A stretch of 64,000 nucleotides of DNA from Phycisphaeraceae bacterium (GTDB lineage Bacteria; Planctomycetota; Phycisphaerae; Phycisphaerales; Zrk34). Shown one piece after another: positions 3-4,878 of the stretch. A model generated the notes under the pieces. That model was not told the DNA's origin, did not search any database, and was given only the letters and a program-made list of their open reading frames with translations. The DNA is taken from positions 186,001 to 250,000 of the forward strand of contig JANQHD010000010.1 of NCBI GenBank assembly GCA_028282805.1. Reading direction: 5' to 3'. Position 1 is the stretch's first letter. Each line of letters begins with the position of its first letter. A program made the position numbers and the translations under genes.

Positions 3-323
3 GCGAAGCACGTCGTCGAGCTTGGCGCCGGCGAGATCGTGCTGACCAGCATGGACGCCGACGGCACGAAGGACGGCTACGACGTGGAGCTGACGCGCGC
101 GGTGGTCGAGGCGGTGGACGTGCCGGTGGTGGCCAGCGGGGGCTGCGGGTCGCCGGGGCACATGTTTGACGTGTTAAAACCGATGGACCAGGGCGGCGCC
201 GACGCGTCGGCCGCGCTGGCCGCGAGCATCTTTCACTACGGCGAATACACCGTCGCGCAGGCCAAGGCCTACCTGGCCGAGCGCGGCATCCCGGTCAGAA
301 CGACGGAGGAAGTGACGGCATGA
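3..323 (+). CDS. hisF: Imidazole glycerol phosphate synthase subunit HisF, 3' part
   Basis: This is the C-terminal part of the cyclase subunit of imidazole glycerol phosphate synthase (histidine biosynthesis). The open frame runs in from the window edge, so the true start lies outside. Family landmarks are the [13 protein letters not shown] loop, the [13 protein letters not shown] phosphate-binding strand/loop and the final [15 protein letters not shown] helix of the (beta/alpha)8 barrel. Its stop overlaps the start of the PilT-type gene (ATGA), so the two are probably translationally coupled although functionally unrelated. Family assignment is very secure. Confidence 0.95.
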
Positions 324-1474
324 GCTCACACACCCACCCCCACATCGAAGATCAACCGATCAGCGTTGATCTGGAAGCGGACAAGGCGCACCTCGACCGG
401 CTGGAGGGTTGCCGGCTGCGCGTGTTCTTCCAGCAGTGCATCAAGTACAAGGCGTCGGACCTGATCCTCAAGGCCGGCGCGAAGATCCGCCTGCGCCTGC
501 GCAACGAGCTCAAGCCGCTGGACGCCGAGCCGTTCAGCCCCGAGGAGCTGGAGGACGACATCGAGCACATGCTCACCGAGCCCCAGCTCCAGCACTTCGT
601 GAAGCACGGTTCGGTCGACATCGCCTACCAGTTCGACGAGGACAACCGCTTCCGCGTGAACATCTTCCGCGCCAAGGGCAACACCGCGCTGGCCGCGCGC
701 CGCGTCAGCAGCGAGATCCTCAGCTACGAGCAGCTGAACCTGCCGCCGATCATGGCGGAGATCGCCGACGCGCGGCAGGGCCTGGTCCTGCTGTGCGGCG
801 TGACCGGCTCGGGCAAGAGCACGACCATCGCGTCGATGCTCCAGCAGCTCAACGAGGCGCGCCAGGCGCACATCCTCACGCTCGAAGACCCGATCGAATA
901 CATCTTCAAGGACGCGCGTTGCATCGTGAACCAGCGCGAGATCGGCGTGGACCTGCCGAACTTCGCCGAGGGCCTCAAGGCGCTGGTGCGTGAGAACCCG
1001 GACATCGTGCTGATCGGCGAGCTGCGCGACCGCGAGACCTTCGAGGCCGCGGTGCAGGCGGCGGAGACCGGCCACCTGGTGTTCGGCACGATCCACGCGT
1101 CGGGCGCCGCACAGGCGTTCGGCCGCATCTACAACCTCTTCGCCCCCGAGGAGCGCGACCTGATCCGCGACATGTTCTCCACGACCATGCGGGCGATCGT
1201 GTACCAGAAGCTGCTGCCGACGCTGCGGGAGGACGTGCCGCGCGTGCCGGCGCTGGAGATCCTGCTGAACAACCCCGTGGTCACCAAATACATCCAGGAC
1301 GGCCGGGAGGTCGAGCTGAACGACGTGATCCGCGATTCCCACCAGGAAGGCATGCTCGACTTTACCTCGAGTCTTGTTCAACTCACACAGAAAGAGTACA
1401 TTCACCCGAAGGTGGGAGAGGCGAACGCCCACAACCCGGACGAGTTCAAGATGCGTCTGAAGGGCATCGGCTAA
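320..1474 (+). CDS. pilT: PilT-family type IV pilus retraction ATPase
   Basis: A 384-aa hexameric secretion ATPase of the PilT/PilU group, expected in the cytoplasm at the base of a type IV pilus. All motifs are intact: Walker [10 protein letters not shown] (about residues 160-168), Asp box LTLEDPIEY (187-195), Walker [11 protein letters not shown] (228-237) and His box [10 protein letters not shown] (251-260). The N-terminal PAS-like region begins near residue 45 ([10 protein letters not shown]). The start codon overlaps the hisF stop. A degenerate GspE-like protein follows 58 bp downstream on the same strand. The substrate pilus is not encoded in the window; PilT versus PilU cannot be decided from sequence alone. 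Confidence 0.9.
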
Positions 1475-1532: not shown

Positions 1533-3167
1533 ATGACCTCCACGCTTGCCACCGAATCCGTCATCCTGATGAGCATCGCCAAGCCGGTCTTCTTCGTCGC
1601 GGTGATGATCGGCTGGGCCAAGTGGGTGACGGTCCTGGACAAGGACGCGGCCTACTTCTTCCTGCCCCGCCGCATGCTCAACGCCGCCAACCTCATCGCC
1701 GGGGCGCTCGGCTTCGTGCTCTGGCTGCTGATCCCCTTCTTCGCGCTGGGGTTGTTGGTGTTCCTGACGCTGGCCGGCGGCGCGGGCTACGCCTACATGT
1801 CGATCCGCAACCCGAAGGTGCCCGAGAAGGAGCGCTGGTCGCTGTCGGCCGAGACCTTCGCCAAGCTCTTCAAGCCCCGCGAGTCCAAGCAGAGCAAGGA
1901 AACCCAGCTCAAGTTCATCCAGATGGCCTCGCAGTCCAGCGCCCACTTCAAGGCCGTGCCCGACGAGGAAGACCCGCACTTCGAGCCGCACCTCAAGCTC
2001 GACGAGCTGCTGAGCAACGCGTTGATGCGTCGGGCCCACCGCCTGGACATCGGTGTCGGCGCCACCGAGTCGGCGGTGCAGATGAGCATCGACGGGGCCG
2101 GCTACCGCGTCGATGCGATGAGCATGGAAGAGGGCAAGCGCATGGTCGACTACCTCAAGCTCGAGTGCGGGCTGGACGTGGACGACTTGCGCCGCAAGCA
2201 GCTGGGCCACATCAAGGCCGAGGTCGGCGACTACGGCGTGCACACGCTGCAAGTGCTGACCGCCGGGTCGACGCGCGGCATCACCTGCACCATCGAGATC
2301 GACTACGAAAAGCAACGCAACATCGCCTTCGACCAGCTGGGCTTGCTCGACAGCCAGGTCGACCAGCTCAAGCCGCTGCTGGCCGAGGCCGAAGGCCTGG
2401 TGATCGTCGCCTCGCCCTCCCGCCAGGGCCGCACCACCACGCTCTACAGCCTGCTCGGTGAGCACGACCCGTACCTGATGGACATCCACGCCGTCGAAGA
2501 CCCCATCGAGGTCGACCTCGAAGGCGTCACCCAGCACGAGCCAGACGAGGAAGGCATGGCCCGCGCGGTCCGCTCGGTTCTGCTCAAGGACCCCGCCGTG
2601 CTCATGATCGCTCAGGTCCCCGACGGCGACACGGCGCAGGAAGTGATCAAGGGCACCAAGGAAGGCAAGCGGGTCTACATCGGGCTCAAGGCCGACGACA
2701 CCTTCTCCGCCCTCAAGCTCTGGGCGGGCGCGATCAAGGACCTCAACACCGTCGCCGACACGCTCCACGCCGTGATCAGCCAGCGCCTGATCCGCAAGCT
2801 CTGCCCGATCTGCCGCCAGAGCTACCAGCCCGACCCAGCGGCGCTGAAGAAGATGAACCTGCCGGCCGACAAGATCAGCCAGCTGTACAAGGCGTCGGGC
2901 AAGATCATCACCGACAAGCGCGAGCAGCCCTGCGAGACCTGCCAGGGCACCGGCTACCTCGGCCGCACCGCCGCGTTCGAGATCATGGTGCTCGACGACG
3001 AGGCCCGCCAGTTCATCCGCGCCGGCGACACCAACGGCCTGCGCAACTCGCTACGCAAGAACCGCATGCTCATGCTCCAGGAAGCCGCGATGGCCAAGGT
3101 CGTCAACGGCGAGGTCGCGATCTCCGAGGTCATGCGCGCGATGGGTGGGGAGGGGAAGAACCAATGA
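1533..3167 (+). CDS. Membrane-anchored GspE/PilB-like protein with degraded ATPase motifs
   Basis: A 544-aa protein whose C-terminal two thirds match the GspE/PilB secretion ATPase fold: VEDPIEVDLEGVTQ (321-334), AVISQRLIRKLCPIC, and the tetracysteine zinc knuckle CPIC (424-427) / CETC (467-470) followed by GTGYLGRTAAFEIM. The catalytic motifs are altered. The P-loop reads SPSRQGRTTT (Lys replaced by Arg), the Walker B segment reads VLMIAQVPDGDT (the usual GEIRD is lost), and the His box reads EGKRVYIGLKADD (no His). Instead of the GspE N-domain it starts with about three hydrophobic segments (14-34, 52-85). It is probably a non-hydrolysing, membrane-tethered partner of the upstream PilT-like ATPase; that role is inference. 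The stop codon lies inside a short tandem repeat. Confidence 0.8.
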   Translation: MTSTLATESVILMSIAKPVFFVAVMIGWAKWVTVLDKDAAYFFLPRRMLNAANLIAGALGFVLWLLIPFFALGLLVFLTLAGGAGYAYMSIRNPKVPEKERWSLSAETFAKLFKPRESKQSKETQLKFIQMASQSSAHFKAVPDEEDPHFEPHLKLDELLSNALMRRAHRLDIGVGATESAVQMSIDGAGYRVDAMSMEEGKRMVDYLKLECGLDVDDLRRKQLGHIKAEVGDYGVHTLQVLTAGSTRGITCTIEIDYEKQRNIAFDQLGLLDSQVDQLKPLLAEAEGLVIVASPSRQGRTTTLYSLLGEHDPYLMDIHAVEDPIEVDLEGVTQHEPDEEGMARAVRSVLLKDPAVLMIAQVPDGDTAQEVIKGTKEGKRVYIGLKADDTFSALKLWAGAIKDLNTVADTLHAVISQRLIRKLCPICRQSYQPDPAALKKMNLPADKISQLYKASGKIITDKREQPCETCQGTGYLGRTAAFEIMVLDDEARQFIRAGDTNGLRNSLRKNRMLMLQEAAMAKVVNGEVAISEVMRAMGGEGKNQ

Positions 3168-3207: not shown

Positions 3208-4878
3208 ATGATCGCGAACATCATCGTCATCGCGTTGATCGTCGGCCTGGCGTTTTGGTGGAGCACGCAGGGGCTGTTCAGCTCGCTGCTGCACATGGTC
3301 AGCACGATCCTCGCCGGCGCCCTAGCCTTCGCGCTGTGGGAGCCGATCGTGTTCGGGTTGCTGCTCGAACGCCAGCCCCAGCTGGCCTGGGGCGTGGGGC
3401 TGCTGGCGCCGTTCATCGTCGCCCTGCTGGTCATCCGCATCCTCGCCGACAAGATCGTCCCCGGCAACCTGGACTTCCACAACCTCGTCAACTCCATCGG
3501 TGGCGGCGCGTTCGGCGCCGTCAGCGGCGTGATCACCGCGGGCCTGGTCATCATCGGCCTGCAGATGATCGGCAACCTCGACCTCAAGTACCACCCCTAC
3601 GAGGTCAGCGAGACCGGCGAGGTCAAGCGGGTCGCCAAGCTGTGGGTCCCCGTCGACCAGATCACCGCCACGCTCTACACCACGCTGTCCGGCGGCTCGC
3701 TCAAGCCGTTCTCCGGCAAAACCCTCGACGCCTACCACCACGACCTGGCCAAGGAAGCGGCGACGTTCAACACCCACACCCGCACCGGCGCCCGCAGCAC
3801 CCTCCGCCCGAGCAAGGTCAAGGTCGACCGCGCGTTCGTGGTCAAGACCGCCGACCTCAAGGGCCTGAAGAAAGGCGACCGGCCCGCCCAGCCCCGCGTC
3901 CACGTCATCGGCCTCAAGTTCCCCGAAGCCAACGCCACCACCGACAAGGACGGCCAGTTCACCGCGTCCAAGGCACAGGTCGCGCTGGTCGTCGAGTCCG
4001 AAGACGGCGAACGACAAACCGTCCACCCCTACGGCTGGACCTGGCGCAAGCGCACCAACACGTTCGGTCGGCTCAACAGCAACACCGAGTTCATCCGCGC
4101 CAAGAGCAACACCAGCGATTTCAAGATCGACCTGCTGTTCGCCCTGCCCGAGCGGGCCGAGCCGCTGTACCTGCGGCTGAAACAGACCCGCCTCGCCCTG
4201 CCGGAGCAGGACACGGTCAAGGCCGACGACGCCAAGCGCTGGATCAACGCCACGAGCTGGAAGGCCGGCGACAAGCCGACCGTCGTGGATGTCGACGACA
4301 ACAACGGCGACATGGAGCTGCCGTCCGGCGGCCCCGGTTCCGAGCTCCACGGCATCCGGGCCCAGGTCTCCGACATCCTGCCCGGCGGGATCTACAGCAA
4401 GAACCGGCTGAACACGCAGTGCTCGAACGTCAGCTTGATGAAGATGGACGACCGCAACGCCCTCGCCTCGGCGACCGGCTCGATCTCCGCCGAGTCGACC
4501 CGCATCGGCAAGACCCTGGCCGTCAAGCACATCTACCACCCCGAGGGCACGAAGATCGTCCTCGTGACGATGGACAAAGCCCAGGCCGGCAGAACCCTCG
4601 GCAAGATCCTCCAGTCCGCCGCCGCCCTGCACACGCCCCTGCTGTACGACAACGAGGGCGACAAATACCAGGCGATCGGCTACATGATCTACGGCAGCAA
4701 GCAGCTGTACCTGGATTTCGACCAGTCGCGCAACTTGCGCAGCGTGAAGAACATCAAGCTGGACCGCATGAACGAGAAAGACCGGCTCATGCTGGTGTTC
4801 CGCGTGCCCAGCGGCATCACGATCAAGCAGTTCAACATCGCCCGCCAGACGCAGCAACTGAACCTGCGGGTGCCGTAG
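3208..4878 (+). CDS. CvpA-like membrane protein with large C-terminal domain
   Basis: A 556-aa protein. Residues 1-125 contain four hydrophobic segments and a glycine-rich GGGAFGAVSGVITAG stretch, the layout of the CvpA (colicin V production) family. The remaining roughly 430 residues are soluble-looking, rich in charged residues and short beta-strand-like segments, and I recognise no domain in them. It lies 40 bp after the GspE-like gene on the same strand and probably shares its transcript. Normal CvpA proteins are near 160-200 aa, so the C-terminal extension is unusual. The function is unknown; a role in the same envelope process as the PilT/GspE-like pair is inference from position only. 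Confidence 0.7.
   Translation: MIANIIVIALIVGLAFWWSTQGLFSSLLHMVSTILAGALAFALWEPIVFGLLLERQPQLAWGVGLLAPFIVALLVIRILADKIVPGNLDFHNLVNSIGGGAFGAVSGVITAGLVIIGLQMIGNLDLKYHPYEVSETGEVKRVAKLWVPVDQITATLYTTLSGGSLKPFSGKTLDAYHHDLAKEAATFNTHTRTGARSTLRPSKVKVDRAFVVKTADLKGLKKGDRPAQPRVHVIGLKFPEANATTDKDGQFTASKAQVALVVESEDGERQTVHPYGWTWRKRTNTFGRLNSNTEFIRAKSNTSDFKIDLLFALPERAEPLYLRLKQTRLALPEQDTVKADDAKRWINATSWKAGDKPTVVDVDDNNGDMELPSGGPGSELHGIRAQVSDILPGGIYSKNRLNTQCSNVSLMKMDDRNALASATGSISAESTRIGKTLAVKHIYHPEGTKIVLVTMDKAQAGRTLGKILQSAAALHTPLLYDNEGDKYQAIGYMIYGSKQLYLDFDQSRNLRSVKNIKLDRMNEKDRLMLVFRVPSGITIKQFNIARQTQQLNLRVP

Follow-up and report, generated by a model that had tools for sequence, protein, structure and literature searches.

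A membrane-anchored PilB/GspE-like protein, almost certainly a pseudo-ATPase, encoded with PilT and CvpA-domain proteins across Phycisphaerae

Among accessory retraction ATPases, PilU is a soluble second PilT-family protein which supports the main PilT and retains its catalytic motifs; the protein described here differs from that type in being PilB-like, membrane-anchored and, almost certainly, catalytically dead. With the PilB/GspE proteins (PilF, EpsE; PDB 5oiu, 5tsh, 1p9w) it shares the fold of the N2 and C-terminal domains, a zinc tetracysteine and the QRLxR segment, but it has three predicted membrane helices in place of an N1/MshEN domain, its catalytic motifs are degenerate and it scores under the equivalog cut-offs. 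Anchored PilB-like ATPases from other classes of Planctomycetota have the same N-terminal membrane module, with a CvpA gene downstream in most cases and a PilT gene upstream in many; they differ in carrying nine intact catalytic residues and in the length of their CvpA protein, ~190–250 aa against usually 350–750 aa in Phycisphaerae. Our search of openly licensed articles returned no description of a pseudo-ATPase of the PilB/GspE/PilT family, and nothing relevant on Phycisphaerae with PilT or on CvpA with pili. The residue roles used throughout are those of G. metallireducens PilB, in which nine residues are catalytic (T327, K331, E357, E395, R271, R286, T411, H413 and H420); R271 and R286 are arginine fingers acting on the nucleotide of the neighbouring subunit, E357 binds Mg, D398 is a pore acid, and R455 touches the neighbouring subunit at the nucleotide-free interface (PMC5424180).

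The window, i.e. the whole 64,000-nucleotide stretch of DNA that was analysed, lies on contig C47 of a 3.9 Mb genome (G000). Near its start, genes for a PilT-family protein (P0002), the pseudo-ATPase (P0001) and a CvpA-domain protein (P0003) follow each other head to tail, with gaps of 58 and 40 bp (Table 1).

Table 1. Features of the three-gene cluster, in window positions, and FHA-domain ATPases of family f8, in positions of their own loci. Starts of open reading frames were assigned mechanically.
Feature	Position	Strand	Basis
P0002, PilT/PilU-family ATPase, 384 aa, intact motifs, first cluster gene	320..1474	+	NCBIfam TIGR01420
P0001, membrane-anchored PilB/GspE-like pseudo-ATPase (almost certainly), 544 aa	1533..3167	+	Pfam T2SSE and orthologue alignment
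P0001, predicted membrane helix 1, residues 16-41	1578..1655	+	AlphaFold model, pLDDT ~96
P0001, predicted membrane helix 2, residues 46-66	1668..1730	+	AlphaFold model
P0001, predicted membrane helix 3, residues 70-95	1740..1817	+	AlphaFold model
P0001, conserved YxxxRNxxVP	overlaps membrane helix 3 and runs past its end	+	alignment
P0001, N2-type domain, ~residues 150-262; R220 retained, Q240 and E255 in place of the arginine fingers	1980..2318	+	
P0001, degenerate P-loop SPSRQGRTT, residues 294-302; K replaced by R300	2412..2438	+	
P0001, degenerate segment of Walker B/catalytic Glu, AQVPD at residues 360-364, in which the pore acid is retained as D364	2610..2624	+	
P0001, degenerate HIS box, residues 379-386, with Lys at each of the two His positions	2667..2690	+	
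P0001, zinc tetracysteine C424/C427 and C467/C470; each Cys in 95-98% of class	2802..2942	+	
P0003, CvpA (Colicin_V)-domain membrane protein, 4 membrane helices and ~430-residue beta-rich C-terminal region	3208..4878	+	
FHA-PilB/GspE ATPases, family f8	L130:4887-6602; L133:4857-6608; L156:4512-6233		

The reading frame of P0001 is open throughout, without a frameshift. An initial sequence-only reading had taken its product for a GspE/PilB-like protein, and both profile search and structure prediction bear this out. Residues 156–535 match the T2SSE superfamily (PF00437; E 5e-45, 154 bits against a cut-off of 24.9), although the scores against the NCBIfam GspE/PilB models fall far under their equivalog cut-offs (184 vs 630 bits and 167 vs 676 bits). 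An AlphaFold model built with 48 orthologues (pLDDT 93.3) has PilF, PilB and EpsE as its top PDB matches (Foldseek E 5.6e-36, TM-score up to 0.89 by target length). Three membrane-length helices are followed in the model by a linker and N2, and an ATPase-type domain forms the C-terminal part; there is no N1 domain, in keeping with the earlier suggestion that about three hydrophobic segments had replaced the N-domain. The MshEN/N1 domain absent here is present in seven of eight active PilB/GspE paralogues compared from the same genome, and its lack in P0001 is consistent with another mode of control. One T2SSE ATPase of this genome (contig C31, L008:1081-2691), which has the longest branch of the paralogues, carries a helix-turn-helix domain (HTH_17) at its N-terminus in place of MshEN.

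When the nine PilB catalytic residues were mapped onto P0001 by alignment and spacing, their equivalents were, in the order given above, S296, R300, E326, Q361, Q240, E255, E377, K379 and K386, hence one of the nine (E326) is retained. The altered P-loop, Walker B segment and HIS box had all been picked out by the sequence-only reading, and the replacements of the P-loop lysine (R300), the catalytic glutamate of GEIRD (Q361) and the two histidines (K379 and K386) were each found as described. The same erosion extends across the class: among 101 aligned class orthologues the equivalents of T327, K331, E357 and E395 are retained in 1, 0, 20 and 26 sequences, and those of R271, R286, T411, H413 and H420 in 30, 16, 1, 11 and 3, with 0–4 of the nine per orthologue (median 1). 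The Walker A lysine is missing in all 101; L, R, V, T, I, S or another residue is found there instead. Of eight PilB/GspE paralogues compared from the genome of P0001, seven score 9/9 and the remaining one 7/9; as the orthologues lack the lysine while these paralogues are intact or nearly so, the catalytic loss is not a product of chance or sequencing error. P0001 and its class orthologues are, judging from these residues, almost certainly pseudo-ATPases, a status which the initial reading had proposed for P0001 and which an old, class-wide loss with retention of the protein strongly supports.

Erosion is centred on the chemistry. The apo-interface arginine (R455 equivalent, R421 in P0001) is retained in 100 of 101 class orthologues, the pore acid (D398 equivalent, D364) in 85, and each of the zinc cysteines in 96–99, so that the tetracysteine noted earlier as kept in P0001 is also a feature of the family. 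This pattern, in which the chemistry bears most of the losses while residues at the apo interface, in the pore and around the zinc persist, would favour an assembly that is permanently nucleotide-free but still structured. The Asp box, which had likewise been noted as kept, is a mixed case: P0001 does have the equivalent of E357 (E326), but this glutamate is present in only 20 of the 101 class sequences, and retention of the box as a family trait was rejected. Within that segment E322 alone is near-invariant, and by spacing the Mg-binding glutamate maps to 326. Three orthologues of one genus (g9; L144, L146 and L147) have also lost three of the four zinc cysteines while retaining the remainder of the protein.

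Counts were made on 248 genomes sampled across the class, which we take to be Phycisphaerae. An orthologue was found in ~243 of them (242 by the N-terminal part and one by profile). Within the order, 59 of 61 genomes have it, two of these 59 at contig ends. Three genomes >90% complete lack it (G129, G164 and G205); many of the genomes are draft metagenome assemblies, in which absences and contig-edge losses are soft. Outside the class, orthologues spanning both the membrane module and N2 occur in families f49, f56, f70, f90 and f99 of the phylum sample, the remaining PilB/GspE proteins of which match the N2 part alone. Intact homologues in close relatives would have pointed to a sequence error; intact orthologues were found in other classes of the phylum only, where 17 of 20 (L170-L179, L181-L186 and L189) carry all nine catalytic residues and three, from families f90/f99 (L180, L187 and L188), are dead.

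In trees computed without the motif columns, the class sequences form a single clade (SH-aLRT 97–98) and the whole anchored family is separated from PilB/GspE paralogues of the same host (support 98). A tree with a single loss, uniting the class with the dead f90/f99 sequences, was not rejected (p-AU 0.39). Since 17 of the 20 out-of-class orthologues score 9/9, the simplest history would be that an active membrane-anchored PilB/GspE-type ATPase ceased to bind and hydrolyse nucleotide, at the latest in the ancestor of the class, the protein then being kept. The pseudo-ATPase is retained over nearly a whole class while active orthologues occupy the equivalent locus in sister classes, and the dead and active forms together provide a natural before-and-after experiment on roles of pilus motors beyond burning ATP. 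One out-of-class anchored relative (L237:4585-6375 and 3876-4613, family f111) retains the P-loop lysine, lacks GEIRD with the Walker B glutamate and the HIS box, and lies between an upstream PilT and a downstream CvpA gene; it is possibly an intermediate stage of decay.

The upstream neighbour, P0002, belongs to the PilT/PilU family (TIGR01420, 384 bits against a cut-off of 319). Its relatives at these loci form a high-scoring group of cognate PilTs, mostly >480 bits with their own profile compared with at most ~450 for other PilTs of the same genomes, and K166, E234, H252 and H259 are invariant in 34 of them that were aligned. PilT lies directly upstream of the pseudo-ATPase in 84 of 101 class loci (median gap 59 bp), and the CvpA gene directly downstream in 97. 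The latter gene had been passed over by the sequence-only reading, as had an FHA-domain ATPase in family f8. P0003 matches PF02674 marginally (29.9 bits, cut-off 29.3, E 6e-7), the domain being clear in the CvpA proteins of L130 (46.3) and L237 (50.6). It shares the four-helix N-terminal membrane domain of the Colicin_V/CvpA family and differs from it by its large C-terminal region. The AlphaFold model of P0003 has a pLDDT of 88; searching it against PDB folds gave chance matches only. Residues 125–556 form a large beta-rich region which is predicted mostly with confidence and is without a PDB or Pfam match. At three f8 loci an intact T2SSE ATPase with an FHA domain (GPTG[SA]GKT and GEIRD) is encoded between PilT and the dead protein, which suggests phospho-dependent control of a motor.

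A membrane anchor, a dead ATP site and a gene cluster that also encodes an intact motor and another membrane protein together indicate that P0001 is probably a fixed dock and not an engine. Our main reading, to which we assign a probability of about 0.5, is that the pseudo-ATPase is a non-catalytic membrane adaptor between the CvpA protein and active rings of the PilT/PilB type; we infer the physical complex, the direction of coupling, the oligomeric state and the output. Anchored in the inner membrane by the three N-terminal helices, the PilB-like cytoplasmic body would be in a state independent of nucleotide. This body would dock an active hexameric motor, namely the cognate PilT and in f8 also the FHA-PilB, and the docked motor would be coupled via the pseudo-ATPase to the CvpA-domain membrane protein encoded alongside. 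PilT motors would in this way be linked to the poorly understood CvpA family.

The main rival of the adaptor reading would be a CvpA-only role, because the link to CvpA is the tighter of the two. The pseudo-ATPase would then mainly partner the CvpA protein, for example as a cytoplasmic scaffold or gate, with PilT optional or a leftover of an ancestral operon. Adjacency to CvpA exceeds that to PilT, a cognate-clade PilT is located elsewhere in several class genomes, and seven genomes of family f11 (L121, L123, L124, L126, L127, L128 and L204) have lost the cognate PilT (best PilT score 386–402 bits) and retain the pseudo-ATPase and CvpA. Such a role is nevertheless rather unlikely overall, as PilT remains adjacent in most families, the cognate clade persists even in several genomes where PilT has relocated, and the three genomes >90% complete without the pseudo-ATPase are also without a cognate PilT, even if one of them, G129, belongs to f11 and would lack it anyway. 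What the f11 genomes do weaken is PilT as an obligatory partner: as the dead protein is kept there without it, the cognate PilT is not its sole client. The partnership with the upstream PilT proposed by the sequence-only reading therefore stands in part, its adjacency and intact motifs speaking for it and its exclusivity failing in view of f11 and the tighter CvpA association.

Less probable again is that subunits of the pseudo-ATPase and of PilT, or of another motor, share one mixed hexameric ring, within which the pseudo-ATPase would tune the ATPase cycle of the motor. Operon pairing with PilT, the PilB-type fold and the retained R455-equivalent inter-chain contact would suit such a ring. 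However, both arginine fingers (R271 and R286 equivalents) are lost in 70–84% of orthologues, so that most would be unable to complete a neighbour's active site, and PilB- and PilT-type subunits belong to different subfamilies. It is very improbable that nucleotide is still bound or hydrolysed through non-canonical residues (R, L or V at the lysine position, with G299, T301 and T302): G299 is invariant (101/101) and position 302 is S or T in 97 of 101 class orthologues, but the lysine position is variable and the P-loop T, catalytic Glu, Mg-binding Glu, arginine fingers and histidines have eroded together. That the protein is a relic in decay, or that its sequence reflects errors of sequencing or assembly, is hardly credible given full-length open frames in ~100 genomes forming one deep clade, near-invariant non-catalytic residues and conserved synteny, and the lysine missing from every aligned orthologue had led us to reject sequence error or decay in a single genome.

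In favour of the adaptor reading, PilC-type T2SSF proteins were present in all 26 genomes tested, hence these genomes have type IV pilus or secretion machinery at their disposal; against it, no pilin or PilC genes were recognised within the cluster itself. A speculative and fairly unlikely further reading is a membrane machine other than a classical pilus, in which an active motor converted to a fixed dock, as a permanently nucleotide-free PilB-like assembly integrated in the inner membrane, would replace or supplement the usual PilC/PilM platform and transmit the force of PilT-type rings to a CvpA-type membrane protein that has an extracytoplasmic domain. In other classes, members of the cognate PilT clade are also found without an anchored ATPase, making the co-occurrence one-sided. 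A PilT of this clade at L230:6214-7449 has an unusual P-loop, GSFPSGKS, and is encoded beside a PilB-like ATPase that is intact and for which a single membrane segment is predicted.
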